A DNA stretch of 64,000 nt from Cyclina sinensis (taxonomy: Eukaryota > Mollusca > Bivalvia > Venerida > Veneridae). Position 1 is the first letter of the stretch. Each line of letters starts with the position of its first letter. Below are positions 14,601-61,900 of the stretch, piece after piece. The DNA lies in NCBI GenBank assembly GCA_012932295.1, contig JAAONU010000004.1, positions 11,222,630 through 11,286,629 of the forward strand, given 5' to 3'. Position numbers and translations under genes: made by a program. The notes under the pieces are model-generated. The model searched no databases. It was given only the letters and a program-made list of their open reading frames with translations, and was not told where the DNA came from.

Positions 14601-17600
14601 ACTACCACCAGGGGTGTGCTGCAAGAACCTTTACACATTTCCATCACAAATACTGGTTTGAACCCAGGAAGTCACCTTCAAACAGGATTAAGACATAAGA
14701 TGCAAGACTTATTTCCAAATCAGTGTAAAATATATATAAAAAATTTTAACTTATAGCAAAAATAACTGATATATGCCATAATGTAAAGCAATAATTTCAA
14801 TTAAATGACTATATACCATGCAACAGCAAGAACTACTGTTTAATAACTGCCAACCATTAGCAAAAACTACTGTTAACTGCCAACCCAAAGGAAACACAAC
14901 TGTTAAATGCCAACCATTAGCAAAACTACTGTTAACTGCCAACCAAAAGGGACAAGAGGGCCATGATGGCCCTGGATCGCTCACCTGAGTACTTTGGCTG
15001 TAGGTTTGCTGTTAAGCAGTATTTCATCTTTTAATTGAAAATATATAAGTGCCTACAAACCAAATGTAAAATATCAGTCAATAAATAAAGGCTCTATGAC
15101 AGAAAGTAGAAATATCTATTATAAACTACGGTGACCTTGACCTTGACCCAGTGACTCAAACCCTACCCATGGGTAGACGTCCATGCAAGGGACCTATATA
15201 CTGAATATCAAAAATATTGGTCTATAAATGAAGGCTTTATGAGGTAACAGTAGATAAATCTATTTTTAGCTTCCGTGACCTTTCACCTAATCTAATAATT
15301 TGAAAAAGCTTGATAAAGCTTGCTTCATGCCAAATTTAAAAATTCTAGGCCTTGTGGTTTCAGACAAGAAGATTTTTAAAGATTTCCTTTTTTACATATT
15401 AAGGGCCCTTGGGGTGGGGCAAATTTTGACCCTGGGGCCAACATTTAAACAATATTGGTAAAGGTTCTTTACACAATACTCAACACCAAATATCTTAGGT
15501 CTACACCTATTTGTTTTAGAGAAAAATTATTTTTCATGTTTTTCCTATATAAATCTATGTAAACCAAGAGAACCCTGGGGCGTGGCCAATTTTGACCCAG
15601 GAAACATAATTTAAACAAACATGGTAGACATCCACTAGACAATGCTACATACAAACTATCTAAGCTGTAAGCATTGAGGTTTCCAGTAAGAAGATTTTTA
15701 AAATTGCCTTTTTTACATATTAAGGGCCCCCTGGGCGGGGCCAATTTTGACCCCAGGGCCAACATATAAACAATACTGGTAAAATTTCTGTACACAATAC
15801 TCCACACAAAATATCTAAGGTCTAGTCCTATTAGTTTCGGAGAAAAATGACTTTTAATGTTTTTCCTATATAACTATATGTAAACCAAGAGAACCCTAAG
15901 GCGTGGCCAATTTTGACCCAGGGGACATAATTTGAGAAACACTTGGTAGACATCCACTAGACAATGCTACATACCAAATATCAAAGCTGTAGGCATTGTG
16001 GTTTCTGAGAAGAAGATTTTTAAAGATTTCCTTTTTTACATATTAAGGGCCCCCTGGGCGGGGCCAATTTTGACCCCAGGGCCAACAAAAAAATAATACG
16101 GGTAAAGGTTCTCTACACAATACTCCACACCAAATATCTAAGGTCTAGTCCTATTAGTTTTGGAGAAAAATGATTTTTCACGTTTTTCCTATATAACTAT
16201 ATGTAAACCAAGAGAACCCTAAGGCGTAGCTAAATTTGACCCAGGGGACATAATTTGAAAAAAACTTGGTAGACATCCACTAGACAATGCTACATACCAA
16301 ATATCAAAGCTGTAGGCATTGTGGTTTCTGAGAAGAAGATTTTTAAAGATTTCCTTTTTTACATATTAAGGGCCCTTGGGGTGGGGCCAATTTTGATCCC
16401 AGGGCCAACATATAAACAATACTGGTAAAGGTTCTGTACACAATACTCCACACCAAATATCTAAGGTCTAGTCCTATTAGTTTCGGAGAAAAATGATTTT
16501 TAATGTTTTTCCTATATAACTATATGTAAACCAAGAGAACCCTGGGGCGTGGCCAATTTTGACCCAGGGGACATAATTTGAGAACACTTGGTAGACATCC
16601 ACTAGACAATGCTACATACCAAATATCTAAGCTGTAGGCATTGTGGTTTCTGAGAAGAAGATTTTTAAAGTTAAGATTTCCTGTATAATTATTATGTCCA
16701 TGGGAAATGAAGTGACCCCTTGGGCGGGGCCAATTTTGACCCCAGGGAAATAATTTGAACAATTTTTGTAGAGTTCCATTAGAGGGTACTAAACGCCAAA
16801 TATCTAAGCTCTAGGCCTTGTGGTTTCAGAGAAGAAGATTTTCAAAGTTTTTCCTTTAAGTTGCCATAGCAACCAGAGTTCTTGATGGAATTGAATTCTT
16901 TGAACAACTTTGGTAGAGCTTCATGCAAGGAACATCCCAGGCAAGTTTCATCAAATTTGGCCAGAGGAGTTGTTGTTTGAATGAAATTGTTGACAGACGA
17001 CCGACAACATACAAAGACTGGTCACAATAGCCCACCATGAGCCAAAGGCTCAGGTGAGCTAAAAACTACTGTTAAATGCCAACCAATAGCAAAACCTACT
17101 GTAAACTGCCAATCAATAGCAAAACCTACTGTTAACTGCCAATCAATAGCAAAACCTACTGTTAACTGCCAACCAATAGCAAAACCTACTGTTCACTGCT
17201 AACCAATAGAATGACCTACTGTTAACTGCCAACAGAACAAGAAGTTCTTTCAAGACTGCAATATAATACTGTAACCTTGAAAGTTTAGCCATTATCCATT
17301 TAAGATCAGGTACAGTAATACGAGTTAAGGAAGTAATTTGAATCTGTAAAATTAACAATACTCCCTTTATGATAGATATACAAGTTTTTCAACCTTTAAG
17401 GCAATATGATAACTATATACCCTCAAATTTTACTCTATGCTCAACATACAGATATAGACAAAATCTCATTTTATACTTCGGTAGGCTTTAGAAATACTAA
17501 TAGGCCATATTTCTTAACGGAAATATGTGAGTGAACAATTAATTGTCAAACCTAGTCAGTTTAGCCTTATACTGCAAGAATATTCAAGTTTTAACTGCAT

Positions 17601-28212: not shown

Positions 28213-31200
28213 ATGACTAAAGATTCAAAGAAACATGGTCATTCAAAAGATGTCACTTCACAAAAGGTAAAAATATGATATGATGTTGACACTTCCCTTA
28301 AAAAAATGGCGAAACTCTTTCGATATGTCACAAATATCAAGTGCCACTTGAAGTGGGTGGGGTATTTATTTTATTCTTACATTTTAGGTCATAGCACATA
28401 TTGAAATAATATCACAGTACCAATTATAATATACATATAAAATGACATCCATAAAATACTGTTATAAGATAGCACACTTTTATCATAAGTGAAATAAGAT
28501 ATGCTATGTACCTATGGATAGCCTATTAAGCTAAAAGCTTATTTCAAATGGGGTCCATAGAAATGAATTAACTAAATGAAAGAAATTGGTCAAGATTTTG
28601 GTGGAAAAAGGATTATATATAACTATGCTCTTATTCTGACTTTAACTAACAAACATCACTATCACAGACTATATGGGATTACAGTACCTAATTAATAGTA
28701 AAAAGGTAAAGCCTAAAGGTAAAGGTTTCTTATTTAACGTGGGTAGTCAACGAAAGTCCCCACCTGGTGTGGATGGAACAACTTATTTCCAGAAGAGCCC
28801 ACGGTGCGTGTATTTTACCTCCCCGATCCCCCAGTCTAGGCCGATACTGCTGGAAACAGTACCCAGTTAGGTTACCACCCAGTCCTGGGAAATCAGTCGA
28901 TAACTCAGTCGCTACCCGGAATAGAACCCGGGTCGCTAGCTTCGTAGCCCAACGCACAAACCACTTGGCCACCGAGTCACCTCTAGGCAGTGGCTACGGT
29001 TACAGAACCATAATCCTAGCCTCCGAGTCTAGGATTACGGAAGTTCCATAATCCTAGACAAACCCACTGGAAAAGGCTACGGTCACGGAAGTTTTTTTTT
29101 TAAAGAAGCGTATTTCCAACAGTTAAATAACAAATAGTATGCCAAATTTAATTTTTATTCATTAAACAAACCATTTTACCAAATTTGCGTTATCAAACTG
29201 TCATTTTCAACGCCCTTTTGATTGTTGTTGTTTCAGTAACGAACTAACTTTAAATATCGTTGTATCTTCACACTGTCACTTGAGTGTTCAGTTGTAGAAA
29301 TTGACAAGACTGACCTGAAATATTTGCTTCCTAACATTATAATTCAATGAAAACTTGGAATTTAATAGATGGTCGTTCATTTTTTGCGTCTTAATAATGC
29401 GAACAAGATAACACTTAAGACAATACACATTAAAGGGCAATTATTTACATCTGTCACATGCTAGTGTATGATGTGCAGATGTGCTATAGTAAATTCAAAA
29501 GGCCAGCTACTTTAAGTGCCATAAGGCCTAGTTTAATCTCTGATGAACTTACCGGCAACTCTTGGTGCCACAAGGTCATTCATCACATTTCCTTCATCTT
29601 TCATATTAGACCGGCTACTTTTCTTGGTCAGACCATTCAAATTATTGAAAGAAAATCCTTGAATTGTCGTATTCCTTAAAAAACATTCATTGATAACTTC
29701 TAAGTTACATAGGCGATGGAAATTTATTAAGGTTCATTGACAAATATATCCCCCGTCCCAGTCGTCTTTGAAGTGGCTGTAGATGATGACAGCAGCATTT
29801 AGCGTTAGACAATACAACAACAACCAAGATGGCGTATCATAACATTAGTGTTGACTCATTTTGGAGAAAACGTAATATTTGAGACAGTCGGTTTATCACT
29901 AAATTTTAGGTATGTAACCCTTTTTTAAAAAACTTCCTTAACCGCAGCCTATTCCAGTGGGTTTGTCTAGGATCAGGGAACTTCCATAATCCTAGACTCG
30001 GAGGCTAGGATTACGGTTCCGTAACCGTAGCCACTGCCTTAATAGTAGTAGTACATATGAATATCTTCTGTTTGCCTTTTTACATTGACTAAGTAAATGC
30101 TTTTCTACAGCTTTTTTATATTGCACAAAACTATTAAGGGATTTTATGGATTCTCATTCAAATCTTTAACTCAGTTATTAAGGAAAGTTTGTTTTATCTC
30201 AGAGATACATTGTGATACAATAGAATTGAATTTATTTGATCTGGTATTGTAAGATTTTGCTTCAGTAAAGCAAACAAAGTTAGCTTTAAGGTAAGTTTGA
30301 CACTTTTTATAATAAATCTTATACATATGATTGAGTCTCAGCTGTTTCACTCTATTTTCCACATTCAGGTTTTCAAGGTTATACACTGTAACAGAAGTTC
30401 TGGGCCTTAAATTTTGTACAAATATTACAACCTTGTTCTGTGTTGTTTGTAACTTTCTTTTTCACTGTTTAGTCAAACCTTCATACCATGATGAAGAAGA
30501 GTAGTCAAAGTGACACTGAATTAGAACTGAACATAAAAGTTGTTTTGTTTTAGAATCTAGATATCTGCCCCAGGGATTTCCCCAGGATCTTTTGTAAGCG
30601 CTAAGATGGACGGGGGAGGGTGCGGGAGGGGGCACCCCCCTCCCTCATGTCGAAAATTTTTAAGGGTTAAAAATGCAGTGCTGTGAGTTGTTTTTAAGGT
30701 ATTTCAAAACAAACAAGTCTTTAACAACAGAATATTTTCTTTATTTTCATCATTTTATGTAATAACATATGTGAACATTTGGCACATTTAATGTGCAACA
30801 GGCCTACAAAGTCTATACATGTCCCCTTCTTGGTTTGCTGTCTTGCCAAATCTTGACAGCTTTTGCAAAATTCATATTACTTATAGGTGGTCCCTGAAGG
30901 GAGACAGCCAGAAGGGAGTTCAGAATCTTGGCTGAAAGCCGGTTCCTGTTCTCTGTCTTAACCGCTTCATCCAGCTGAATCCCCTCTCACAATCTGAAAT
31001 TCATAGAATACAGTTATAATTCAGGTTAACACATCATCATAGTTTCTGTTTTTTATAATAAGAGTTTGTTTCCTCTGAATTTTGATCTTCAAAAGTTCTA
31101 GCCTGTTTTTGCTTTACTGAGTCAAATATTGTGTTTTGACAATTTGAATAACTAACATAGCCTTGAACATCTGCAGCTGTTTTAATTAAATGCCAAAAGT

Positions 31201-34200
31201 AAATCAGTATCATGTAATCACCTGCAGTAGACGCTGGGAGGAGGAGACCAACAGAAGCCAGTCTGTAGAGTACAGGGTGGCTGTTAGACAGGTTTGTTGT
31301 TATCCAGGTCATGGTCTGGTCAGCAGACAGGTCAGAACCCTGAAAACTGGCCCGTACCTGGCGCCAGTTGCTACAGCATTCGCCTTCATCTTCACTGAAG
31401 TGGCTGGCTAGTTCCTTAATCTCAGCTTCACCTATGCCATCAAGGTCGTCCTCGGAGCTTGACACAGCAAAAGCCCCAAACTTCTCAAGGAGAGGCAGGT
31501 CAGGGAAGCGATCTTCTAAGTTCTCCATAAGGTTGTCGAAGAATGGCAGGTAGATCTGAGGAAAAAGGGAATTGAAACATTTTATAAAAAATAATCTGAA
31601 CTCTTTGGATTATTAGGAAATTATTATTTATTGTAAAAATAAAACAATTGATATTGACCTTATAATTCAGTTTCCATGTTACTGATATTTTACATTCCTG
31701 TTTAGATGCATGTATGATTCAGTTTCCATTTTATTTCTTTTTAACACAAAAAACATTTGCAAATCATTGTTTTTATTTATGTTATAAATCCACTTTCATT
31801 TACCTTTTCATGAAAAGTTTCCAGTTCATCCTCAGAAGGCGACTTCACCTTGAAGCCCTCGTCAATCAGCTGTCTGACCCTGGCTGGGGCGGCTTCATTA
31901 TGCTCAGCTGACTTTGTCCTCATACCTTGTAGTATGGAAAGGGTCCCGTTGACTAGTGGCCTGACTGTTGTGTACACTGCTTCCCTCTTCTGAAATAATG
32001 AAACAGTAAAATTACTATTTTTTTTACAAATTTCTTACAATGTGGCTTTTAATTGTTTGCAAAGTGAAACCCATCTCTGCTGAATGTTCTGCATAACATT
32101 AAATCAGTTAAAACAGATTAAATTACCTGCATAGCTCATGACAAGGCTGTGAGATGGGGTAAAATGTCACACATCATGTGGATTGCCATTACAAAGCGGT
32201 AGTCCTGAGTGAAAACGGACAGTCCTGCTGCCTTTGAGTCATTGCGCTCCTCAGCCTCACGCTCAAGGCTTGTGTAGATTGACGGCAGACACTTTCGTAG
32301 GGTTGTAGTTGCCTTGTCCTGTGACAGCCACCGGACATCTTTCGCCTCTACTAATTTCAACTTCGGATCTTGGAGAAGTTCCTGTCAAGAAAAGTTAAAT
32401 ATAATAATTGTTATACGTTTGAAATACATAATCTCTTCTTTTCTTTTCTCAAAAATACATTGGATATTAATTTTCATAATCATTGCCTTGACTGACTTTG
32501 GTTTGTTACCCTATAGATGTTCCTGTCGACAACTGAAATCATGTAAATTTATAAGACAATGTTTATTTATAATCCAATGCACAGTTTATATGCATTATAC
32601 CTGTATGGCCTTAAGTCCACTTGTGCGGACAGCACTCTTTTTGTAGAACCAATGAAGATCACCAACAATGTCCTTGAACTTATGGAGGTAGGTGACTCCT
32701 TTGGCTGCTTGTCCAACGGCCAACGCCAGCCTGTGGGCTACACAGTGATTGTTGACAAGGTGTGGGATCCGTCTTCTCAATTGGGCAGCCACACCATTAT
32801 GCTCCCTGACCATCACCTTAGCGCCATCACTGCCCAGGGCACACATCTTCTCAAGCTGAAGGCCCATGTCCTCTATGATAAAAGTCACCAGTGTCGCAGT
32901 GATTGTATCAGCTTTCCCGTCAGGGAGAGGGAGGATGCCTAGAAAGTCGGTCTTGCTGGCCCCATCCTTCAGATATCTGAAAAACATATATAAAATATTT
33001 GCATTTTGTTTATGTTTCAGTAATAAATATTCATTTTTATAGATTTGAAAATAGAAAACCAAATTATCTGCATTCCACAGACATTTTAGGCTTTTGTTTT
33101 CAAAGTTTTTTCATAGGCGACTTCTTGCAGGAACTTGTAAATACATCAAATTATAATTTTACCTGATGTAGATAATCATCTCGCTGACAATGACAACACT
33201 GATGTCGGTAGTTTCATCTATCATTATTGAGTACCATGGTGATGCTTTCACGTCATCTAGGATGGACTGCCTGATCATGTTGCCCATGGTAAGGACAGCC
33301 TCTTGAATGAACCTCTGAGACTCTCCCTTGTTGTTCTCACCCTGGTGTAGATTGTTCAGAATGCTGGCACCCTGAAGTTTGCCTGAAAAAATGTAAATCA
33401 GTGACCTTATTATACCTTATAAAGCTAACTTTGATTTGCACTAACCAGTCTTACTAAAATCCAAAAAGCATTGCAACTGTTTTACTTACACAGTTCATTG
33501 AGTGGCAAGTAGTTGGTGGTGTGTGGAAGCTCTCTGTGCATCAGCTAGTAGAGGTTGCGGAAGGCAGCGACACGGGCCTTCATGTGAAGAGTGTTGGCCT
33601 CCTCCACTGCAGTTGTGTGGAGCGAGTCGACTAGCCTCAAATGCCCTTGCCTCATCGTGGGTGTCAGAGCACTCGTGCCTGCATAAGGCATCCTTGACTA
33701 GCCAGGTACATGGCTTGTCCACCCATGTTGCACTGCCTATAGCTGCTTTCTTTGGTCTCTTTTGAGCACATCATGCCTGAAAATATTTTAAAAAATAACG
33801 AAGTCATCAAACAATGCAAGTTTCTATGATGCCATCTGATTTTACTCTGTTCCATCGTATTCTTATTGATGTTTTTTAATGCTTTGTTTGAACTTATGTT
33901 AGTGGAAGAGGAGAACAATTCAAATTATTTTAGATGAAAAAGAAATCAGCATGGTATGATTTCCTCCATCGATTGCATCATGTTTCCTCGTTAACTATGT
34001 TATAACATCAAGTAAACGGGGTACCAGCTTAATTATTTGGATGTCTTAGGTTGACACAGTGAGTTACATATTAAGTTCTAACTTTAGAATGGTTGGGAAC
34101 CCAGAAATTTTAGTCAACACCTCTAACGATACGGTAGGCTGGGTGTAAGTGATCGTCTGTGTAATTTCAGCCAATAGACAGTGCAGTTTTCTTTACTAAT

Positions 34201-37200
34201 TAAGAAAAGAAATGCAAGACAACCCTTTTTATATGATGATTGACGCAATTTGCCCTGAGTCAAAGAAGTTGTAATAAGTGCCGTAGATTAAATAGACCCT
34301 TACCATCTTCAACTTCTTTGACCCATGGATAATCGTGTTTCCACTTTTGGTCAAACCCAGACAGTCTCTGTTTCTTTGAATGCTGGATTTCATCTCTAGA
34401 CCTTTTCTTATCATTAGAACACTCTGTACTATATCACTCACAGTAACGTTACTATCATTACAAATGTCACCCACATTCCTCACAAGAAAACTTGAAATTG
34501 GTTGTGAACCAGGCAGAGGCCTCTTTTTCCCCTTATTTAGATTAGACATTATGCAGAGTTAAGACTTGGAATAAAAAATCTACTTCTAAAGATGCTAATG
34601 TAATAAAGTGCGAGTTGCAAGGCTTGCAGTGTATTCGCGGCGATATTCTTCGTAGTCAATATACACGTGGACTAGTTTAATCCGGCTAACAGGTATGAAA
34701 TTACAGACAAATGAAAGAAACATCGGTGGCAATTTTTAAGCGCTAACAGTATTTTAAGCGCATCAGGATTTTAGATTTTGAAATTTAAGCCCATCGGCAC
34801 CAATGCGCTAAAAGTGCCTGGGGAAATCCCTGCTGCCCTGTCTGTATAAAAATTTAAGCGTGGCATTCACTTTAGAAATAACATTATTTATCCCCCTGCC
34901 AAAGGCGGAGGGGATATTAGGAATGCCCTTCGTCCGTCCGTGTGTCCGTGCATCCGTGCGTCCGACCGAAACAATTTTGTCCGGAGCATAACTCCAAAAC
35001 TACTTGAGACATATTCCATTTAAAGGTCAGGAAAATCTGTCAATTTTCTGTTCCTTACAACATTTCTTAATAAAGCATAATGTAGTGTTTTTTTGTGAAA
35101 TGTGTTATTTGTTAGATATGTGTGTATCATTAAAAACGGTACACAGGTGATAATAACGTTTTATCATGACAATAAAGTTCATTTCAAAAGGTAATTGACA
35201 GAGAATTTGACGGATTTTTTTCCCGCCTATTGAAGCCTTCTCCTCGAAGATATTTTTTCTCATTGTTGATACTTCATTCAATTTAGCAAGTTTATATTTG
35301 AATAAAGGAAACATAGACAATTATTTTGATGTGTGTTATAAACATCTGTGACTTATTTTAGCCTTGCAATCCACGCCGAAAGAAGTGTAACTATCTATGA
35401 ATTAAGCTGTCAATGTGAATGGCGTTCGTTCCGACAGCGTTTAAAATTAATGCACAATAACATTATTGGTGAAATGTAAATAAAATTACACAGGCTAGTA
35501 TAACAAGTATAATCACAGAAACAATTTAAGGCTACAACTTCTCAAACATTGATCTTGAACAATTTTACTTCACGAACGTAATTTCTGTCAATATTCTACG
35601 AAAACGTTCGCTACATTATGAAATGCGATAGAGTAACCCCCCTTCCCGCGGGAAACGCGCACCAATTCAAATTTTGCGCCAAATAACCGACACGACGTTT
35701 TACAGCGATACAGGCATCATCCAGATCACATAACGAGTGAGTATTTGTAAAATTTCTTCTTCTGTCAATTTTTTTGACACTAGCAGTGAGTGACGATAGT
35801 TACAAAATAAAGAATATTTAGAGTTGATGATATATTTTTTGCAGTAAAAGCACAAAATATTACTTTATTTCTAATAAATGAGATAAATATCGCGAAAACT
35901 TCAAAGTTAAATGAACTGCAAATAAAATTCCAAGAGTTTATGTAACGATTGTAACATTTTGACAGAATAAATATGTACGATCGTCAAATATTGACAGTTT
36001 CTTTAGAAACAGTCGTCATTTTTGACGGAAGAAATTGTAACGATCGTTATTTTTGACCAAATTCAATGTAACGATCGTCATATTTGACAGAATTTTTGTA
36101 ACGATCTTACAAAAGTTGACGGAAAAAGGGATCATCTAGATCTGTTCAGTACTATATTCGCTATTATGGAAGTTGTATACAGAAAAAATAATAAAAAAAT
36201 TGCGACTTAAACTATTTCTACCATGTTGTAGCGTATATGACTTTATTTCATACAGATGTCATTAAAACCTTTGATGACTTTGAAGATGTTGTAACGATCG
36301 TTATATTTTGACAGAAATGTTTGTAACGATCGATTATGTTTGACGGAAGATATTTTCATTTGAACAGGAGATTTAGAACTTGATTTTTTAAGACAATGTC
36401 TAACCTGGGACTTATATGTGTTCCGAGATATAACTTAATCATATGTATATCTACATTTTAAAACAACAAAGCTATCATAATCATCATGAAAAAAATATTT
36501 TCTTTATTTCCATTGTCTTTGAAAATAGGTAATTTACTATGTATAAAAAATATTGATAATCACGATAAATCAGTGGTAAATACTCAAGATTGTCCCTACA
36601 TTTTTTTATTTTCTTCTTTCTTGGTGTAAATGGGTTTAAAATGAAAAAAAGGTAAAACATCATGAACATGTATTCTGATAAGTTAATCCAAATCCTCTAT
36701 TGCTCTATCAATCGCGGATCGATTTTGATTTTTTGGTAATATTAACCCATTTTGACTCGCTCAAAATGCAAAGATGATTGTATAAAGTTCCATATTAATT
36801 GAATGTTCAACTGTTGCCGGTCATTGGTGGCTTTCTGCAGTTAAAAGTGTGTTTACACGACGATGATTTCTCGTTTTTCTTTCTGTCTTTCTATATGTAT
36901 GCTGGGGCAATATTTTGAATCTATGATCTTACGTCCGTGAAAAATCTTCAATAGGTACAATATTTTAATACAGAATTGAATCTAATCGTGGAGTGACCGG
37001 TTTTGTTTAAAAATAATTATTAGGTACATTTAGATAAAAACAATTTAATAAATACTCGTGTTTTAAACTTGCTATTTTTAAATTAATAAAAATAACAGTC
37101 AGACCACTGTACATAGCGACGCTTTAAAATTGGCGCGCTAAATGGAGACGCGGAAAATGCTAAAAAAAGCACCGAATAAGACCGATTTTTCGTTATTATC

Positions 37201-37906
37201 TTTTATAAACCTTAATGGATTTTCTTCAAATAAAAAGCATAGACATCTACATGGAAAGTACCTCCTTTTGCTATAACCGACATTTTGTGAAGATCTATTT
37301 TTCTACAGTCTTTTCCCAACTAAGTCAGTCTTTGAAGTGTTTTGTAAAACATGCACGGATGACGACTATTCAGTCGAAAGCAATTACAGAAATTAAGAAA
37401 CACTTCACACAAAACCGGTAACAATTTAAGAAAGTGCTTTATATGTTGGGATTTAATGCACTGCATTTGAAGTAAATCTCTTTAGTTGTAAAAACGATGA
37501 CAACCTACCTGCATCAAAGCTACATTTAGAATTTCCCGCCATGCACGTTCTCTAAATAACACGTGGGTTCGCCGCCCTGTATATTTTTCTCATGTCATTT
37601 TATAACACAAATAATGTGTCAGCAATATAAATGAACACAAATTTATTATTTTCTTTTTGATATGGACATCGTTTTACATCAACCTCTGTATATAATTACA
37701 GGAATGCACATCATCGTATGTTCAGTTAACTTGCGTGACGTCAGCTTCGATATTTTTGCGTTACGATTTTGTGTATTTTAATTTCTTTACTTTAAATATC
37801 AGATAATCATAAAGGTATTCACAATAAAGCTTTTTTCTCAATTATTGAAAGAAGAATCTTTTTTTAACTTATTTATTTTAAGAATGATGGATTGTTTGAT
37901 AGAAAG

Positions 37907-37938
<32 letters not shown>

Positions 37939-40900
37939 ATTAAGACACTTTGCACATTAAGACACTTTGCCCCCCCCCCCCCACACACACACACTACAAT
38001 CAGTAGATGACCCCTATTGAATTTGAGGTCATTAGGTCAAAGGTCAAGGTGACAGTGACGCTTATTGTAAAATCCATGTCACAAAGATAACTTGAGAAGG
38101 ACTAAGCCATGGTTTATGTTACATAGTAGGAACATTGTCCATGGTCATTAGATGACCCCTATTGATTATGAGGTCAAAGGTCAAAATCAAAGTGACATTT
38201 AATGTAAAATCCTTGTCTGATCAATAACTTGAGAAAGAATAAGCTGTGGTTTAAAATACTTGGTAGAGACATTGCCCATGGCAATAGATGATCCTATTGA
38301 TTTTGAGGTCATTAGGTCAAAGGTCTAGGTCTCAGTGACATTTACTAAGTATAAGTATGTATATATATGCCACTGTAACAGGCAGCTGAATTGGGGACAT
38401 CAGTGTCCTTTGTACACATTTCTAGGTTTTTTTACATATATTCTTTAAGACACTTAGCAATACATAAACCTTTCAAAGCTAAAATTACTCTCTTTTTTTC
38501 TGACTGCCTATAGGCACACTAAGGATATATTTTAATGATATTACAATTAAATAACATGATTTAAATATGCAGTCATTTATCTCTCTAAATAATTTCAATA
38601 CATATTCCCATTTTTACCATAGAATTTCATTGAAAACTATTGTCTTCTACAGTCTAGATTGTGTAAAACTGAATCATTATTTTGTCTACCAACATAATAG
38701 TTAGGTTCACAACTATCTTGCCTATATAGATGTAACAAAAATATCGTAAAGATTGCATGCATGTCACTCATAAAAGGCCTAGAGAATTTGACAGATCTAT
38801 ATTATCCATTATTCCGTCAATTAATAATAAAAGATTTACTGCTTCTTTGATGATATCTACTGAAAATGGTCATATCACTTGCTTATATATTTAAAGACTA
38901 AAAGATCCCGTCTAAACTAATATTTTTTTCTACAGCTTTTGAAGTGCTTGATTCTTAATTTACTCCAGACTTGATAATTTGTAAATAATCATAATTGTCA
39001 TCTACATGGTATATTAAGGGCTAAAACTTAAATATACATATTCCAGAAGTAATTCTTCCTTTCAACTTTATTTCAATTTTTAAGGGAACATATACTAATG
39101 GTTCTTAAGAATTCACACATATATGAACATTTTTTTTCTATTAAGATTAAAGAAAGTCATGGCATCTAGGATGACAAGTTATCGCCATAGATTGAAAGAA
39201 GAAGATCCTGAGAAATATCAGTTGTATTTAGACAAGCAAAAAGAAAGATCTAAGATAAGAAGAGACAACCTTAAGAAAGAACTACATTCAAAAAAACCAT
39301 CAGCTTCAGCCTTAGAGAAAAAAAAACATCAGTTGGAACAGCAAAGAGAGAGACAAAAAAAATACATTGAAAGAAAAGCTTGCAAAGTTTCAGAAAATAA
39401 TAATAATGTTCTTAAAATAAAGTTTACACCATCAAAACATATCACAAGAAATAAGGCTAATTCAAAAAAAGAGTATAATAGAGTAATGAAACAAAAATCA
39501 CGAGCACTCATGTCACCACAGAAGAAAACATGGGAAAGGAAGAAGGACAGAGAGAGGAAAGCAAGAAAAGCAGAAGAGAAAAGAAAAGAAATGTCAAAAG
39601 ATAATAACTCTAAATTACCATCTGTTGTAGATGCATTTGACAAAAGTCCATTTAATTGTAAAAAAACAGAGCAGAATGTTACAAGCTGCATGCGCAAAGC
39701 TATGCCTGATGATGCAAACAAATATGCCAAAATTGTCCACAATCTGATTGAAAAGTCATCACCAAAAAAACAAAAGGCACTTCAAAATATACTAAATAAT
39801 GACAAAAAGAGGCCAATGAAAAAAAATGTTACTAAGGACAACCTGAAAAAAGTGAAAAGGAGATCAAGTATTGATCACACTCTGATTAAATCCTTCTATA
39901 AGAGAGAAGATATCTCAAGAGTAGTACCACAAAAAAGGTTTGCCACTAAAGAGGGACCAGGCTATTTGCTCCAAGTGTCCATTAAATCTGCATATGATAA
40001 GTTTTCTTCTGAAAATCCAAATAAAAAAGTAAGCTTCAGTAAGTTTGCCTCACTTAGACCTAAAAATGTGAGAAAGCTGAATTACAGCCATAGAGAGTAT
40101 TGTGTATGTACATACTGTATAAACATAAGATTTAAAATCCTGACACTAAGCAAGGCTGCCCACAAGAAACACAAGAATGAGAAAGATATTTTAGAAATTC
40201 TTCTCTGTGACAAAGGTGACAGTGCCTTATTCTTTAGGCCAGAATGTATAAATGGTACATGTGTAAAGTGCACAAACTATCAGGAGACTCTAGATTCCTT
40301 CTATGAAGGAATTCCAGAAGACAAAGTCTTAACTTGGTGTAGGTGGGAATTGCCTAAAAACGAAACAAGAAGAATGCTTGTCACAAAATCAGGGACAAAA
40401 AATATGTTACTTAAAGAATTTGTAAACCATGACATACTGAAACCCAGTCAAGGAACAACATTTCTACAACATATCAATAATGCTTTGTGGCAAAGCAGGC
40501 AATTTAGCAATTTAAAAACAAATTTGCCAAAAGGGTGGATACTTAGTGTCATGGATTTTGCCAAAAACAGAAGCATTATTTATCAAGATGAAGTCAAAGC
40601 GGCATTTTACACATCATCTGCAATAACAATCCATCCAATTGTAACATACTACAATACAGATGACGGCATTATGCGTGACTCAACTATTATCATTTCCGAA
40701 GACCTGAATCATGACTACCATTCTGTCAAACATTATGCAGATATAGTTACTAAGAAATTAAATAATGTTATTGGAAGAGCCAATATCATAAAGTCAGTTG
40801 TTTTCTCAGATGGCTGTGCTGCCCAATATAAATCAAAGGGCCCGTTTGCTGACTTATCTTTAGAGGATGGGCAGATAAACAGAAACTATTTTGGGTCAGA

Positions 40901-43900
40901 ACATGGCAAGAGTGAATGTGATGCAGAAGTAGGAGTACTAAATAGAGCTCTCGATAGAGCAATTATAGGAAAACAGGTTATCATCAATAATTCAAATGAC
41001 TTGTTTGAATTTTGCAGGGACAATTTAGAAATCAATGACATTTTATCCAAAAGAACATTTCACCTAGTCAGAAATAATGAAATTGAAAGAGACAGACCAG
41101 AAACAGTTATAAAAACACTACCAAAAACAAGAAAAATTCACCAACTTTTGAACATAAAAGGTAAACCGTATCAGGTTCTTACAAGAAATTTGTCATGTTT
41201 TTGTAAATTTTGCAATTTAGAGAAATATGAGGAATGTTTGAACAGTCAATACGTTGACAATTTTGAAAAACGAGAACTCAAACCAGAAATCACAAATATT
41301 GTTGAATTAAAAAAGCCAAAGGAAATATCAGATGCAGTCAGAATTGATGAAACTGATGAAAACATAATAACTGAAATTGGAGAACGAAAAGAAAATATCA
41401 CTGACACAGATTATGATGACAGAAGAGAAGAATACTTTGGAAAAAAATTACAAAGTCTGTCAAATGCTGAAACTTTTGCGGAATTAGAGTCTGCTTTAAG
41501 TCAACATGATACCATCATGCAGGCATATTTAAATGACCTTCCAATTCAAAAGGCATTGACTTTTATGGGTACTGGAATGATCATTGATGGACCCAGTCAA
41601 GATCTGCTGCCAGATGACATTCCATTAAAACCTCCTTATCCCCTGTATCCTGCTAGAATTTTTGGTGATGGTAACTGTCTGCCTAGGTGTGCTAGTGTAG
41701 CTGTATTTGGAAATGAGAATCATTATAAAGAAATGAGATACAGAATTGCAAAGGAACTCACAATAAACAAAGATTTCTTCTTAGAAAATAACAACTTTCT
41801 GGCTGGCAAAAATCCATCAGGAGACCAAAATGTGACAAGAGCATTTGCCTCAGTTTCAGATTGCTACACTAGCGGGAGACTAACAGAAAAAACCATTTCA
41901 TCAATATTTGAAAAAGAAACAAAAAGCATCACTAAACCTGGCAGTTATATGGGCATGTGGCAGTTATCTGCAATTTCTAACATTCTCAACAGGCCAGTAG
42001 TGTCTGTTTGCCCAAGTTATGGAAATTACAATATCAGGCATGACATAAATAGGACATTTTACCCAAAGAATAACTCTGAAAGTGAAGAGAATCCAGTATA
42101 CATAATGTGGACAAATACCAATGGTGCTAATACTCCAGAAAACAGATTCGTCTTGAACCATTTTGTTCTTCTGATGCCTCTAACGGAACCCACAGTAGAG
42201 AACATCACAGATCGAAGTGATAATTTCCTTGACCTGTCAATACCCTTTAATGAAACTGGATCAGACATTTTTGTAAGCATTGTTCTTAAATTGCACAACA
42301 AATCTAATTAATTCATCTCATGCTTTGAGCAGAGATACTTCAACATATCTGTGAAATATGACATACCACACCCTATAAAATAAGAACAAAATTTGGTTCC
42401 CTATCTCTATGTTTTGTGCATTTAAAGAAGTTTCAAAATTATCTCAAGATACTTCAAGACCTTTGCTATAAATTCACTCAAACAAATATCCTTTATACAT
42501 GCTACAAATTGCAATGTAATGAGTTACAAAAAAGCGTATTAAAACTTTTGTAGTATTCATGACTATTATATTGCATGATTTTATGAACAAAGCAGTCATA
42601 TAAATGTGATTTATGCATTAACAAATTATTACATTTTAGGAGGATGATACTTGCAGCAAGATACAAGACATTATCATAGATTTCCTTGATAATCATGGAC
42701 CAGAAAATGACAAAGTATGTATTTTTCTGTAATTGTTGACTTTTATTTTGTCTTTAGGTTCTTTTTAGAAGTTCAACAAATATAAAGTTTTAAACTACAT
42801 TGATTTAAAAACTGTCAAACATGAAAGCATCTGAAAGATCACAGTGAATATAAGAATTATAAAAAAACTAACTGCTTTGCTTATAATTACTATATAGAAA
42901 TCATTTAACAAGAGCCTGAAAAGTTAAATGCTTTACTTAAAACACATGGTTATTTAAAAAGTAAAATTAAAAGACACATATGTATTTAAGTTGTTGTTTT
43001 TTTACACAGATTAATATTATACTTCTTTTTCTAGGAGCTCAAAGACATATCAAGTTCAGTTTCTGTATGTAACTCCTCAAGCTCATCTGAAGCTGATCTA
43101 GAGAAGGTATAAAATTACACTGATGATTTTATAATGCTTTTCTTAAATGGCCTTTCATGAAACATTAATTGTACTTTTCATTCCTTTATGCTTTCATGAA
43201 ATAAACTTCCTTTCAAACTGTTGAAGGTGCCAAATTGAAACAGAAAATGATTCAAGTATGCAGAGAATATATTTTTTTCTATACATTTTGTTCATGTTCA
43301 GTTTGTTTGGCCTTTGAATATTCACAGTCTTGACTGTCTATTCATCTTTGTTAACATTATCAGCACATGTTTCCTCTATATTTTAGTTGCCCAGTGGAGT
43401 TACAAAAGAAGAGAATGATACAGAAAGAAGCCCCCAAACCACCTATGCTGTTGACAATGAAGAGGTGAGAAAATGTGTTACGAGAAGTTTGTTTTAAAAT
43501 CATTGGCACTTGTATTTTTTATTTTTCTGATTGAAAATCATTATAATATAATATAATATTATACCTTTTTCATTTTTAGATTGCTGGAAGTGTTACAGGA
43601 CTAGACCAAGTAACAAAATCAAATAGCCCTACTCAAGATATAAGTAACAGAGAAATTGTGAGTATTTTCATACTATGACTGAACATTTCTTTATCCCTTT
43701 ATTGACATACTTTACTTCTTTGTTTCACACTTTATACTTAGCATCTTTGACATACATTTTCTTGTTGTAGATTCTTGGTTGTGTTGCAAGACAAGATGAT
43801 GAAACCAAAAGTAGCCCCCATATCCCTTATGCTAGTGATGATGAAACCAGAAGTAGTCCCCATATCCCTTATGCTAGTGATGATGAAACGAAGAGAAGCC

Positions 43901-46900
43901 CAAAGGTCCATGATGCCAGTGATACTGAAACCGAAAAAAGCCCCCATATATCTTATGGTAGTACTGACGAATCCAGAAGAAGCCCAAATATAAATGCTGT
44001 TGACAATGAAAAGGTGAGAAAATTTATATCTTTGAAATTTGATTGAACATCATTTACCTTGAATTTTTTTCTATTTCTCCATGCTAAAGTACTAATCAAA
44101 TGTAATATTTGTCACTTTTTTAGATGGCTGAAAGTGTTACAGTCCCAGACCAAATTATAAAAACAAACATCCAAACTCCATTTACATGTACAATTGAAAG
44201 TGAAATGGTGAGTTATACATTGTGTCACTGTTGAATTTCTTACAGAAGTGACTTGCTCAATCTATATCAATATAGCATTTTCAGTATGCAAGTTATGTTG
44301 TTACTTTGAAATTCCCAATGGTATTATTCATTCTCCTATATGCATATGATTATGGATCCTAACTTGCTGTTGTTTAACATCAAAATGCCTTTAACTTGTA
44401 TGGATTAAAATCATGTTCTGAATTTTCTTGATTTTATGCTACTTTATTGCCTTAATAATTAATATCTCTTTGAAAGTTTGCCATTATCCAGCTATTCACA
44501 GAATGTTGATCTTATCAATGTTCAGCTTTGTTTGATATCAAATATTGACTAATCATTGTTAGGTACCCAACGATGTTGTTGTAGAACTTCAAGAAAATAA
44601 AGAAAAGTGTACACCTAACCAAAAAGCAGAAAGAGCAAATGTAAGTACAATAACTTATTCGTTTAAAGTATGACATGAAAAATACTTTATTATTTTTATT
44701 TACTGATTTACCTGTTGTAATATATACTCTGTATTTCAAAATTCCAGTTTGCTGAAGGTAAAGAACAGTCTCCAGTCTGTATCAATAAGTGTTTAGATAT
44801 GAAAGGTGGTCAGATATCACCTGTACAGCCAACAACAGAAAAGCCTTCTAGTCCAGATGTTCCATGTAATAGGTAAAAATTACTGTCTTATAAATTCATC
44901 ATTGTATTTGCATTTTTATATTAGTTCAACAATCATTTAATTGTTAAAAAAATACAGCTGAACTATTAATCTTTATTTATTATAATGTTAGGTCTTGTTA
45001 TTTTTCAAATTATCTGATAAGGAGCCATGGATGTCAATGTGACATCAATCTTTTAATTGAAGCAGGCTCTCAACCAGGTCTTCTTGAAATACAGGAATAT
45101 TTTTACCAAAAAAATAGGTTTTTGGACATTTTTGAGGCAATATATAGGAATTTTTTTAATGGAAAACTATATTCTTTACAGGCACTAACCCTGTCAAATT
45201 CTTACCTGTACACTTCCAGTTTTAAAAGGTCTTAATAATTACAATCTCTACATTACATAAACTGTCCACTTCAACAGCATCACAATCCAAAGAGAAGACT
45301 GCTGCATAGTACATCATCATCATCTGAATGGGCACCTGAAAGGTTTTTTTTTTTATTTTAACAAAAGAGCACATTACAACAACAATTCAATAAATGACAA
45401 TATGCAATGATAAAGCATAATGACTTAAGTTAAATTATGGCAAATTTTATTATTTAATAATTATGTATCAAGTCTGGAATATCTGTTCCTTTAGGCTTGT
45501 ACCACAAAGTGTTACAATTATAAACCAATGTCAATGGCAGCATCAAGATGACTCAATACAGTAAAATAAAGCATGACTTTTATAATCAAAACTGATAACT
45601 GAAACTAATGTAATCTTGTAAGTTCAGTTTGACTTACCTAAAAAGTGTCGACAATCACACTGCTTTTCAAGGTGACCACTCAGATGATGGAGAAGTGCAC
45701 TACAAGATTACCTGACGGGGATGGTGATGCTGTGGAAGACAAACAACTTCTCTTACCTGTAAAATAAAGAAGTTTAAAGCAGTATCAAAATAATATTTAG
45801 ACTCTCATTTTTTTTGCGACAGTTATACTAAAAAATACATGAATATTTTCCAAAATATTGGAAATATAGGAGGTATTTCAAAGTACAGGATTTTGATCCA
45901 AAATATAGGAAAATATAGGAATATAGGAACTGGTTGACAGCCTGTTGAAGTGTCTTTTAGCTGTATAATTTTTTTCACCTTAAGTGAATATGTATCTCAT
46001 AAAGCAAATTAATGTGATGACTTTGTAGGTATAATGTGGGTGACTTCATACTTGCTAATTTTGGTAGCAAAAGTTATCCATGTCTAGTAAGTCCTGTGTT
46101 ATCAATGTTATATGTTTATTATCAAAATTTAGTGATAAGTTCTTTTAGTTACATTTCATACTTATTTATTTGAACAATTTGCCAATATCTTTTATTTTAT
46201 TGAATATATATTTAATTGTGGAAACTGTGTATTTTGCAGTTTTGAGCACATGTAAATTTTCTGTACCAAATATTGGTATATTTGATATCATATGTTAGAC
46301 CACTTAATCTTTCAGTTATCATTTTGTATGATTTTACAAATTTAAATGGGTTTAGCAACTCTGTTTAAGTTTATTTCTTAATACTGATTTCACAGCTCAA
46401 TCTAATATTAGTGCTACATTTAACTGATTAAAAATTGTTAGCATATTTCCCATCCAAAGTTCATATTTGATCACTATAATGGTTTGTTGAATTACATTTG
46501 AAATTTTATTGCTAATTTCATTGTACTACAGGTTGTACAGACTCCTGATGACATGGAAAGCCTTCCAGGTGTTGGTATCTGGGTCCAGTGTCTGAGAAAA
46601 GCTCGAGCTAGCCTTTGGACACTTGAAGAAAAGCCATTCTTTGTAGAATACATTAACATCTGTCATTCACTGGAGATTCCATCTCTTAAAGCAATTGGGA
46701 CAAGACTTTATTACCAGTTAAAACTGTGACCTTGTTTCATGTTGTGACATTTGTTGTCACAAATACTAACGTAAATTATACTGACCTTGGGTGTTCAAGA
46801 GAAATGAAATTCACGTGTGATTGAATATTGTTTTAAATGTGTTCTGTCTTTCCATTGGTAAATAGTTTTATCACATACCATACCATGATTTTGCGTCTCC

Positions 46901-49900
46901 GTAAAAATGATAATGCACAGACCTGCATATATTTTGAAGTGACATTATACGAGCTATATAAACATGTAGTGTAAAGATGGGCTTAATGTTATCATTAAGA
47001 GAAAAGTGTTTCTTTTTTCTGAAAACGGGTCTTATTTTGGTATGTGATAAATAGATTATTTTATTCGTGAAGCTTTATTACTAAATTTATTGAACTCCTT
47101 TAATAAAATAATATTACGCTTGCCAGAGGCTTGCATAGTATAATTTTATTCAACAAATTCAGTATTGAATCTAAACTCATGTAATATCCTCTGATTGCTT
47201 TTTAGAAAGCTACTTAACTATACATAATGAATAAGAAGGGTGATTTTGAATCATTTTTTGTAATGATATTTAGTTTAATTTAATACCAAATGTTCAAAAA
47301 TTTTATGTACACTTACTTAGATTTTTTTTTCATTTATCAGTGGGATAGTCCATTATGATATACTTATGAAAAGAATTAATTTTATATTTTAATAAGTAAA
47401 TAACTGGTCAATTTTTAATCCACACACATTTAAACATGGCTTAGAATAGTTTCTTAAATTTGCTGTTTAGTACCGGGAAATATTTGTAAATTCCAACAAA
47501 TACTGACATTAAATAAAAAGTGGTTTGTATATTTGCGACATTGTTTAAACATTTTTTTTTATCAAAAAGTGACATTAGTTACAATTCTGTCAAAATCTGA
47601 CATAAGTTACCTATGTTCTGTCAAAATCTGACATTAGTTACAATATGTTCCGTCAAATTGTGACATTAGTCACAGCATTTTCTGTCAAAATTGTGATGAT
47701 AGTTACACTGATATAACATATTCTTATGCTTACATTGCTGAATATCAAAGAAAAGATGAAATGCCTACAATGATAATATGGAGAAGATTAAATAAAACAT
47801 GCATAAATCTACCATAGTTATTTATAGACAATCAAACAGTCTGGTTTAATGTGTGCTAACGTCATTATTTTCTGTCAATTTATCTGTCAAATAATGACAT
47901 TAGATACATGATATTTTCAAATTGCAAAAAATTGTTAATAAACACATTAACTGATATTTTTTTAGTAAAGTTTCCTTATTTTCACTTTACCCCATGGTCT
48001 TGTATAATTTTTTTTAATAAAAAATGAAATTTGTAAATTTGACCATATTGGGAATATTCTGTGTCTGATAAATAGAATATGTCTTGAGGGATTTTATTCA
48101 AACTTCATACACTGACAGAGCACATTGGTAGGGAGTGCAGTGTGCAAGTGCAATAACTCTACCTTGCCTATTTTTAGAGTTATTCCCCTTTATCAGAATT
48201 ACTTGATAAATTTTGTCCGGAGCATAACTCCAAAACTACTTGAGGGATTTTATTCAAATTTCATACACTGACAGAGCACATTGGTAGGTAGTGCAGTGTG
48301 CAAGTCCAATAACTCTACCTTGCCTATTTTTTAGAGTTATTCCCCTTTATGAGATTTACTTGTTTACATTTTAAAAATCCCAGCATATACATGTATATCT
48401 AATTCTTGAATTCTTGAACTTATTATCCCCCCGCCAAAGGTGAAGGGGATATTAGAAATGGTCTCTGTCCGTCTGTGTGTCCGTCTGTTCCAGTTTTGTC
48501 CGGAGCATAACTCCAAAAGTACTTGAGTGATTTTCTTCAAACTTCATATACTGAAAGAGCACATTTGGAGGAGGTGCAGTGTGAAAGAATAATAACTCTA
48601 CCTTGCCTACTTTTAGAATTATTCCCCTTTATCAGATTTAATTGAAAAACTTAGTCCGAAGCATAACTCCAAAAGTGCTTGAGCGATTTTCTTCAAACTT
48701 AATACACTGACATAGCACATTGGTAGGAAGTGCAGTTTGCAAGAACAATATTTCTACCTTGCCTATTTTTTGTGGGATTTTCTTCAAACATTATTACACT
48801 GAGTGTTTGAAAGTACAACCTTCAGGTAGCTTCTTCCCAGCGGGGGGATTAACCATGTGTAACATGGCTCTTGTTAACAATTGTTTCACCAGATAAATGA
48901 CTATTAATGTGTAGGCCAGGATACTTCACTAAGCTTTCACCTTTAATACTATGACCATTACATCTAACTGTATAATTTTCTTGTGTAAGCAATTTTCTTT
49001 TTGGTCCAAATAACATACATTCAGTCTGACAACTTGTTATCAACAAGTCAATCGGAACAACTTCCTAATGCTGCACCAAGTTTAGCAGAAATAAAATCTG
49101 GATCTTTATGTGAAAATAAGATAGTGCTATCATCTGCATACAATATTAATTTACAATCATTATCAGTACTTAAAATCATATCATTTACATAACAAAGAAA
49201 AAGCAACGGGGCCCAGAATACCACCGCAGGTTACACTGTTAACCTTGGAGTATGTTTTACCTATATTGACAATTTGTGTACATTGAGAAAGGTATGATCT
49301 AAACCATGGTAGAGACTTTACACCCATAAGTTCCAATTTTCCACCTAGAATATAAAATAAAATATTAAAATAAAATTCTGTTATAAATATTTGTTGGATC
49401 AGTCTTTTGAAAAGACAGTTACTGATTTTTTACATACAATTTAAAGGTCAGAAATCTATAACGTGATACGGAAATTAATCAGGTATCCAAAAGAGCATAT
49501 CACAAATCACATAAGGATGAACTGAAGCTTAAATCAGAGCTTGAAATTGTATTTTTTAGTCATTCAAGAGTCCTACTGTATACCTAGCTTTTTCTTCTTT
49601 AAATAAAAACAAGGAATGAAACACACACCTGCCCTGCCCACTACAAATTTAGGCCACATCTCATGCTGCATATCCATATCGGTAGACTCTGCGAAATCAG
49701 TTTTATTGGTGGCCTGTCTGTGTCGACATAGGTTATGCTCTGCTGTAAAAACTTTTTTCAATGATACACACTTAGATAAAAATAACAGGTACAGTCAAAC
49801 TTGCGAACAAAGACTGCTCCAGGGAATGAACAAAAGTGGTCTTTGTTCACAGGTGGTCTTTGTTCGGGGACCAGTAATAGATAATTTATTTTCTTATTTC

Positions 49901-58900: not shown

Positions 58901-61900
58901 GTTCTTTTTAAATGTTTGTAATAAAACTGGCTGGAAAATAATGGTCTGATTGTTTCAGATAGAGTTGTTTCTTAACATGCTCACTGCTGTTTTTGTGGAT
59001 TTATTTGCAGTGCTTGTCGTAGTCAGTTAATTGAAATTTGAGAAATAAATGTATTTTGCATCAGCTTCCTGAAAACTGTAAAATCTGCGGACATCATCTG
59101 TAAGGGGAGACTACTGCTATATGACTGATATCGATCAAATAATTATCTCTCTTTAATCCAAGTTATAATTTCCCAACTACATGGCCTGAAAGGACTTTTA
59201 AACAAATACTGCAAAAGAAGAAATGGCTTGAGTGCTAAATTTTACAAGTGCTTTGTGTAGTTAATTACATTTCTTCCCATGCCTGTTGTTGTTTTTGTTT
59301 TTCAGATAAAAATGTGGATATCATTTTTAATCCCAAAAATAGAGGATGGAAATAATTTTGGTGTTTCAATTCAAGTAAGTTCTTCATTGAAAACATTAAT
59401 ATGTTATAATTAATTATTAAAAAAAAAACAATTAGAAAATTTGGTTTAAAACCTGCCACTGTGGTCAAATTAGCTAGTATCTTTGATTTCTTGATTACAA
59501 AGCTTTAACATCTTACTGATTTAGAGACATTATCCCATGAGTTTAGGCCTTGATACCAAGCATGTGTACTTTTGTAACATAACATGAAAATAAGCTGATC
59601 TGTTTTTTACCTATGAAAAACTGGCGGAAAAAAATTGATAGAGGTGTATGCAGTAGATACACTGGTATAAACATAATACAGTGATTGAGTTTTGGACTTT
59701 TGTATATAATGTGTACAATTTCTCTGTGGATTGCTTTCAGATTTTGTGTTTTTCTGAAAATTTAGGAGGAGACATTAGGTGAGGCAAGACAGGTTGAGAG
59801 TGAGGCTGCCACCTATCTAGACCAGATATCCCGATACTTCATCTCACGGGGTAAACTTGCATCAAAGGTTGCAAAATATCCACATCTAGTAAGTCTACTG
59901 CTCATAAATATTTATATATGATTTGTTTCTTAATTTATAAATTCAGAAAATGTATATGCCTCTTTGTACTGTATTTGGTCTCGGCATAGTACATAATGTT
60001 TTTGGGTAGTACTTCCAAATATAAAGTTTCTTTTAAAACCCAAAAGGTATTGCCTCCTAGTCACTTAGTTCGCAATAGAAAAGGCACTGTAAGCTGTTAA
60101 TTGTATCATACTCACCTGAAAGCAAGATGCTCAAGGGTGAGCTGTAAAGATGGGTGACTGTCTGTTGTCATCTGCCATCAGTCATCAGCATTTTCCTTCA
60201 TATGTTATCTCCTGTTAAATCACTGGGCCAATTTTAACTTCACAGCAATTTTCCTCCATTGGTTCTTTTTGTGAAAGTCCTTAAAAACAAAATTACTTCT
60301 TCATGTGATTTTGGTCCTTAATTTATATAGCTTAAGCTAACATAGGAAGGGGCCTGTTTCCACTTCATAATTATATGGAAAAATTACAGAAAAAATCTCC
60401 TCTGGTCTGAAACTGCTGTTCCAATTACTAAATACTTTCAGAGGAATATTTCTGATTCTTTATCTAATTCTTTTAAGCAATATTGCTTTATAAAAAAACT
60501 TGGCTTAGGGTGCAATTTAGGATACAACTTTAAAGAAAATCTTCCCAGAAAGCCCTGGCCCAATTTCAAAATAATTACATGGTGGCCTTTTATCAAATTG
60601 CTGCAGACCATGTTGGTCCATAATGTCACACTTTGGTTAAGGTTTTGCATGCAACTTAATATCATGCATATAGCTTAGAAACCAGCAATACTTATTGATT
60701 TTATACTTCACGTATGTCTTCAGGGGCATTCAGCAAACAAGTTAGATAACACTTTACCAAACTTTTTGCAAATCATGACACTTTTTTACTTAGAAATCTT
60801 GGTAAAAGTTTTGCATGCTGCATACTTACATGCTTATTTCTCAGCAATCATAATGGGATTGACTTAAACTTCAGAAAAGTGTTTAGGGACATTAGACCTT
60901 CAGGTAAGATAACTCTTGGCAGAACTTTTAAAAAAGTTATTGCCCCTTTAAACTTAGATATTTGGTTTCGGTTTTGCATGCAGCAAAAAATTGATCAAAG
61001 TTATGCATATAATTTACTATGGTGTGTATATTTTTATAAGCAGCTTTTATTATTGTTTTAATACTGCACTGAGGTCTTCAGGGGCTTTAAAGAAACAAGC
61101 TGGATAACTGTTATCCAAATTTAATGCAAATTATGACTTGGAAATTTTGAGTTCAGTTTTGTATGCAACCATCTGTTGTTGCATATATCTAAGTAATCAG
61201 CACTGAGTGTTATTCTCCTTAGGGTGTACTTGAATTAGCCTGTCCATCTGTCTGTCTGCCTGTCTGTCCATAGAAACAATCATTTCCAGACCATAAATTG
61301 CTCTCCTTTTTATCTATCTGCATGAAAACTTACACACATACTTCCACCCAGTCGATGCTGATCCCTGTTGATTATGAGCTCACAATGTTTTGAAATAAGG
61401 AAAGTTTCCAGACCATAACTTCCTTTCCTTATTTCTACCTGCATGAAAACCTTCTCATGGACTCAGAACCACATCAAAGATGATCCCTTTTAATTTTGGG
61501 GTTAGACTGTCAAAGGTCAATGTCACAGTGGATCGACAGTATCAAGATCATAAGTTGCTTTCCTTTTCTTCCTGCATGAAAACTTACACATGGACTTGCT
61601 CCAGATCAAGGGTGATTCCTTTTGCTTTTGGGGTCACAAAGTCAAAGGTCAAGGTAACAGTGCTAAGACATATTGTTTTTATCGCAGTTTACCTATATAT
61701 TTCACAAGCAGCTTTAAACTAATAAGCTGCGAAAAGTCAAGTGCACTGTCTTGCGGACAGCTCTTGTTATCATTCTCAGTTGTTTCAAAGGAAGTTTGAT
61801 GTATCTGACATGCTTGGTAAAATGGGTACGGTTGAATGGGCAGTTAACGTAATCATTATTCCTGGTAAGGACCAGTACTAGACTACAATTCTCAAGGAAC

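Follow-up and report, generated by a model that had tools for sequence, protein, structure and literature searches.

Among described DNA transposons, the candidates among the full-text literature matches listed for the element reported here, a 13-kb segment within a 64,000-nucleotide stretch of the bivalve Cyclina sinensis genome (contig JAAONU010000004.1, assembly GCA_012932295.1, positions 11,222,630 to 11,286,629; hereafter the window, in whose own numbering all positions are given), are Ginger, Dada, IS481EU/IS3EU, KolobokP, and KDZ (Kyakuja/Dileera/Zisupton). The features of these groups are given as they stand in excerpts of the cited papers. Ginger1 elements are 2.6 to 7 kb long and have TGTNR ends, terminal inverted repeats (TIRs) of 40 to 270 bp, 4-bp target site duplications (TSDs) of CCGG or CCGT, and a Gypsy-integrase-like sequence with YPYY, H2C2 finger, and GPY/F motifs; several families carry a C-terminal OTU or Ulp1 domain, and the animal hosts include a gastropod (PMC2836005). 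The 6-bp TSD is usual in IS3EU and GingerRoot and is also given for Polinton/Maverick; IS3EU ends in TA..TA, and GingerRoot mostly in TA..TA and occasionally in TG..CA (PMC10045372). Dada has 6- to 7-bp TSDs, RNA-gene targets, and an 11-exon, 1,402-residue transposase in which a cysteine cluster precedes the core and a C/DxxH motif lies between the second D and the last E; in Dada-U6_DR, the third acidic residue follows the second by 176 residues, and the cited Dada-U6 and U1 elements are given as lacking TIRs (PMC3706591). Kolobok duplicates the 4-bp TTAA (PMC9587614). TSDs of hAT elements are 8 bp, or 5 to 7 bp in hAT5/6/7, and two Kyakuja families have 7-bp TSDs and are given as lacking TIRs (PMC12730594). 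The comparison literature also covered TET-bearing transposons (PMC12730594), bivalve surveys (PMC10294476 and PMC8905726), and giant transposons (PMC6431247). The Cyclina element is quite probably a structurally complete DNA transposon that likely moves by cut and paste through a predicted 12-exon, 1,416-residue transposase, whose DDD core is predicted to be integrase-like. Completeness had been proposed in an earlier note on this DNA, and the TIRs, 6-bp TSD, restored repeat unit, subterminal arrays, and DDE/OTU gene support that structure.

Boundaries and target site

The element and its target site comprise the following features.

35003 to 35008, no strand: left copy of the TSD, CTTGAG, read from the sequence
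35009 to 48082, plus strand: whole element, 13,074 bp
35009 to 35022, plus strand: left TIR, ACATATTCCATTTA
48069 to 48082, minus strand: right TIR, ACATATTCTATTTA on the minus strand
48083 to 48088, no strand: right copy of the TSD, CTTGAG
48190 to 48420, plus strand: uninterrupted tandem-repeat unit mirroring the empty target (paralogous)

The two inverted ends are identical at 13 of 14 positions and share the consensus ACATATTC[C/T]ATTTA, and exact matches to ACATATTCYATTTA within the window are the two element ends only. These coordinates and the TIR identity agree with the earlier reading of an inverted-end segment between two CTTGAG. The TSD is exactly 6 bp long, with the next base mismatched at either side. 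Each flank is half of one tandem-repeat unit, as had been noticed before: joined across a single CTTGAG, the flanks match neighboring repeat units at 155 of 164 positions (94.5%) and 275 of 333 positions (83%), and the alignments have gaps elsewhere and none at the junction. The insertion is judged real because the joined flanks restore the repeat unit with a gap-free junction. The uninterrupted ACTACTTGAGGGATTTTATT, which the earlier note had offered as an internal empty-site control, is indeed present, but it starts at 48235 and not at 48242, i.e., 7 bases earlier (ACTACTTGAGGGATTTTATTCAAA, 48235 to 48258, with its CTTGAG at 48239). The unit is a paralogous copy of the repeat; as such, it represents the empty site well but is not the empty allele.

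The element is known here from one copy. When the element was compared by BLAST with the remainder of the window (E value of 1e-3), the only matches were to poly-A and to the AGGTCAAAGG-type repeat from the element's 5' region, and scans of viral contigs and prokaryote genome contigs, in which animal copies are not expected, returned no relative.

Subterminal arrays and internal repeats

The following repeat regions lie within the element.

35941 to 36356, plus strand: left subterminal array of ~31-bp units, TGTAACGATCGT..TTTGACRGAA, putative transposase-binding sites
47562 to 47710, minus strand: right subterminal array, TTCTGTCAAAATCTGACATTAGTTACA, in the opposite orientation to the left one, with an extra unit at 47878 to 47909
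37937 to 38344, no strand: tandem repeat with a period of ~137 bp (AGGTCAAAGGTCA...), 5' region of the element

The arrays of ~31-bp units are mutually inverted and lie ~0.9 to 1.35 kb inside the left end and 0.4 to 0.5 kb inside the right end. The motif TTTGACRGAA occurs at five plus-strand sites (35958 to 36339), at four minus-strand sites (47585 to 47680), and once in the open reading frame (ORF) described below (40721), with no occurrence in the other 51 kb of the window. The arrays noted earlier are therefore real, with the motif clustered in inverted orientation near both ends, and their layout is typical of arrays to which a transposase would bind. The AGGTCAAAGGTCA-type repeat resembles sequence at other places in the window and is probably a nested host repeat; here the transposon may have captured, or been invaded by, satellite-like host sequence.

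Predicted transposase gene

The element contains only one ORF of at least 160 residues, at 39099 to 42311, with the first likely start at 39159. Splicing from a GTAAGC donor close to the 3' end of this ORF, followed by ten more GT..AG introns, would add 11 small exons in frame and give a predicted gene of 12 exons (39159 to 46729, 1,416 residues) with introns of 107 to 686 nucleotides.

39159 to 42272, plus strand: exon 1 of the predicted transposase gene (ORF open to 42311)
42640 to 42714, plus strand: predicted exon 2
43035 to 43106, plus strand: predicted exon 3
43387 to 43464, plus strand: predicted exon 4
43580 to 43657, plus strand: predicted exon 5
43771 to 44013, plus strand: predicted exon 6, with 42-bp coding repeats (DDETKSSPHIPYAS)
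44124 to 44207, plus strand: predicted exon 7
44563 to 44640, plus strand: predicted exon 8
44748 to 44872, plus strand: predicted exon 9
45295 to 45342, plus strand: predicted exon 10 (acceptor least certain)
46029 to 46086, plus strand: predicted exon 11, where the conserved C-terminal domain begins (VGDFILANFGSK)
46532 to 46729, plus strand: predicted exon 12, remainder of the conserved C-terminal domain and stop

The single DDE-like/OTU gene described earlier is present, and the refined prediction makes it larger than the ORF. The G+C content is 39% in the small exons versus 27% in the introns. A search with the C-terminal 117 residues found one protein at an E value of ≤1, from Mya arenaria (63% identity over 78%; E value of 3e-28), which is labeled low quality and partial. 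This protein has the core, OTU, and C-terminal domains in matching order (275 of 781 and 62 of 110 residues identical) and is continuous across the exon 11/12 junction, and the match gives independent support for the C-terminal domain. An exon candidate at 45495 to 45564 was rejected, as it ran into a stop in the chain tried. Inverted arms of 27 bp at 45311 to 45337 and 45670 to 45696 are 81% complementary; one lies within predicted exon 10, and they may represent an inverted partial duplication of that exon.

Predicted protein domains

Residues are numbered from position 39156, and three regions were recognized within exon 1.

40101 to 40271, plus strand: cysteine cluster upstream of the core, C316-x-C318-x2-C321 ... 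C351, C364, C369-x2-C372, likely zinc binding
40536 to 40967, plus strand: predicted RNase-H-like catalytic core, with D467 (40554), D552 (40809), and D589 (40920)
41589 to 42197, plus strand: OTU-like domain, with D838-G-N-C841 and H1002

Folded alone, the core was modeled with a predicted local distance difference test score (pLDDT) of 90.9, and D467, D552, and D589 are kept in 44, 43, and 42 of 45 aligned members, respectively. The model predicts an RNase-H core with three acidic residues, as in class II DDE/D transposases, and an integrase topology with a second-to-third acidic step of 37 residues (~35 in the retroviral-integrase-like fold). The prediction for the core is an integrase-like structure and not a hAT- or Dada-like one: only six residues separate its last strand from the catalytic helix, the position at which hAT elements have their insertion domain. 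Its predicted fold and second-to-third spacing resemble those of the catalytic cores of avian sarcoma virus (ASV)/Rous sarcoma virus integrase and IS21 IstA, although no sequence similarity to them was found and the third residue is D, not E. In ASV integrase, the first-to-second and second-to-third spacings are 57 and 36, so that the first-to-second spacing of the element (85) is longer. In the VIA table of the core, the rows below the integrases include TnsB (9.3), Mos1 (9.2, with a root mean square deviation of 23), SETMAR, Argonaute-type proteins (up to 8.4), and Hermes (7.9); Ginger, KDZ, and IS3EU are absent from this table, which is no argument against those groups.

Searches of the core against Pfam, PDB sequences, and insertion sequence families returned nothing, and hhalign of the core against Escherichia coli InsF gave a probability of 1.9% with a single-sequence target. 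The C-terminal region had no Pfam match at E values up to 10, and nothing in the BFVD viral library matched at an E value of ≤0.001. With the whole protein, the best 50 Foldseek matches were OTU-domain entries only. The OTU domain is predicted from the fold and the DGNC/H residues, with a Pfam score slightly under the cutoff, and is likely to be ubiquitin cutting.

Relatives

The initial protein search returned 37 proteins, 12 of which have an organism name: Mytilus, Ostrea, Ruditapes, Mya (two), Patella, Crassostrea, Plakobranchus, Priapulus, Pecten, Lottia, and a Sedimenticola metagenome-assembled genome. A profile search, in which scoring was limited to the 7,992 candidates with the most shared words, returned 52 proteins at an E value of ≤0.01, the new named ones being a second Plakobranchus protein and one from the rotifer Rotaria. 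None of the labels of the named relatives includes transposase. The Patella cluster comprises five contigs and the Pecten cluster two, as expected of a mobile gene.

In an alignment of core relatives (A6), three members match HTH_28 (best E value of 0.02) and two match SWIRM (0.043), all weakly; an N-terminal helix-turn-helix for DNA binding may exist in some core relatives. The Sedimenticola entry (P0011), closely related but lacking the OTU domain, is filed as bacterial and is likely host DNA contaminating a symbiont bin. In one Mya arenaria protein (P0013), the region before the core is split by ~500 unrelated residues with no Pfam match at an E value of ≤0.01, which by eye appear to be another transposase joined by annotation read-through. 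Pfam matches of protein P0006 to PF22165 and PF23709 were set aside, as they are located in a repetitive tail. A link to vertnin, suggested by the database name "VRTN-like," was not adopted: no vertebrate vertnin is named among the 52 proteins from the 7,992 scored candidates, which is not an exclusion.

Comparison with known transposon groups

The earlier note could name no family into which the element fits, and this assessment is upheld: Dada, Ginger1, IS3EU/GingerRoot, Kolobok, hAT, and Polinton each differ from it in at least one tested feature. The element joins a predicted integrase-type core to a likely C-terminal OTU domain, as is known from Ginger1 (PMC2836005), and combines such a core with the 6-bp TSD that is typical of IS3EU/GingerRoot (PMC10045372). 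Together with the integrase resemblance of the predicted core, these likenesses would suit a very diverged member of IS3EU/GingerRoot or an OTU-bearing Ginger1 rather than a separate lineage. We consider this unlikely. In contrast to Ginger1, the element has a 6-bp CTTGAG duplication, AC..GT (ACATA..) ends, 14-bp TIRs, and a length of 13 kb, no sequence match was found, and the conserved cluster upstream of its core is cysteine based. Its AC..GT ends also differ from those of IS3EU/GingerRoot, and the OTU and C-terminal domains lie within one predicted protein. In addition, no rve-type family is present among the 25 Pfam families listed, of 29 in all, for the 45 members.

Membership in the C/DxxH superfamilies, most plausibly Dada, is very improbable. 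Dada resembles the element in TSD length, its multi-exon gene, a transposase of ~1,400 residues, and the cysteine cluster upstream of the core (PMC3706591). However, the second-to-third acidic spacing is 37 versus 176 in Dada-U6_DR, and the cited U6 and U1 elements are without TIRs (PMC3706591). The residue three positions before the conserved H583 is C or D in only 1 of 42 ungapped sequences (3 of 45 gapped), and any C/DxxH string occurs within the acidic interval in 5 of 44 sequences. The window has no Rfam match at gathering scores that would indicate insertion into an RNA gene; ARAGORN made one call, a tRNA-Pyl-like sequence at 16740 to 16815, far from the insertion.

The lack of C/DxxH at the conserved H also separates the element from hAT, although its TSD is compatible with hAT6 (PMC12730594). 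Kolobok differs in its duplication, which is 6-bp CTTGAG in the element. Polinton/Maverick elements are characterized by DNA polymerase and capsid genes. The element shares with them the 6-bp TSD, large size, and a predicted integrase-type core, and such genes were not seen: the element has a single ORF of at least 160 residues, and none longer than 71 residues is present in 35009 to 39090, although genes made of short exons would escape such a count. Compared by published descriptions, the element likely works like an integrase-type cut-and-paste transposon that is filed in none of the tested groups, and the lineage is matched to no named superfamily that could be compared.

No such family is described among the literature matches listed, in a search that had Repbase and Dfam outside its reach. 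The family may already be catalogued in one of these under a name out of full-text reach; for a single bivalve, the Pacific oyster, a survey counts 422 DDE/D transposon sequences in Repbase (PMC10294476). Set against the literature result, this is a serious possibility that we nevertheless hold to be somewhat doubtful.

Proposed mechanism and weighing of the evidence

In the proposed mechanism, the basic N terminus, the cysteine cluster, or both would bind the TGTAAC..TTTGACRGAA arrays and the terminal repeats, and the D467/D552/D589 site would free the ends and join them to target strands 6 bp apart. Gap filling by host repair would then leave CTTGAG at either side. Either the transposase or host factors at the break might be deubiquitinated by the OTU domain, and the C-terminal domain might contact chromatin or host proteins; these two roles are the least supported. 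For OTU, the best available idea is that of the Ginger authors, who suggested host repair factors as possible targets of such proteases (PMC2836005).

Some of the evidence is of limited weight. With up to two mismatches, the end sequence has 6 matches in the window versus 4.06 expected and is thus by itself nothing special. A scan for 14-bp TIRs (first four bases identical, at most one mismatch) with identical 6-bp flanks, 1 to 25 kb apart, found 4 pairs in the window, including the 13-kb element, versus a total of 5 in 30 first-order Markov replicates, so the bare pattern is only moderately unusual. The exon chain is a prediction, and the exon 10 acceptor is its weakest choice. The exons were picked by eye before their frames were compared with random same-length noncoding stretches of the element, and the resulting chances of an open given frame (0.03 to 0.36 for nine of the ten internal exons and 0 of 3,000 stretches for the 243-nucleotide exon 6) are a plausibility check and not a test. 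The chance rate of about 0.17 pairs per window-sized random sequence would also allow a host gene derived from a transposase, with coincidental flanking repeats. We give this hardly any credence, since the repeat unit is split exactly at the duplication and the subterminal arrays mark both ends of the element.

Beyond the structurally complete transposon itself, we propose tentatively, and with somewhat less than even confidence, that it belongs to an unrecognized superfamily of animal DNA transposons, of which it would be the first structurally complete member and which would be present in at least molluscs, a priapulid, and a rotifer. In such a superfamily, a single protein would combine a retroviral-integrase-like DDD core with an OTU deubiquitinase and a tail contacting chromatin, and 6-bp duplications would be made, and this member would be young enough to be still mobile.

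Other features of the window

A second insertion-like element (30565 to 34838) lies 164 bp to the left of the 13-kb element; its inverted ends, CAGGGATTTCCCCAGG at 30571 and 34832, match perfectly over 16 bp, and the 6-bp CTGCCC flanks it on both sides. Its minus-strand ORF (32595 to 33110) has a subthreshold match to DUF4371 (E value of 0.13), which makes it plausible that this element is hAT-like, with 6-bp duplications. Two further TIR and TSD pairs are located at 6951/9767 and 13640/17920. At 61772 to 62567, a 265-bp unit is present three times with 99% identity, a very recent tandem duplication.

Significance

If confirmed, the lineage would be added to the 23 eukaryotic DNA transposon superfamilies in Repbase in 2022 (PMC10045372), and mollusc genes that are now unannotated ("uncharacterized protein LOC..." and "VRTN-like") would be explained as transposases. 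The intact gene and precise ends provide a ready substrate for mobility assays, and the element makes the role of protease domains such as OTU inside a transposase testable. An integrase-like core with six-base staggering and no detectable sequence kinship is also relevant to how many times transposases arose from integrase-type enzymes.

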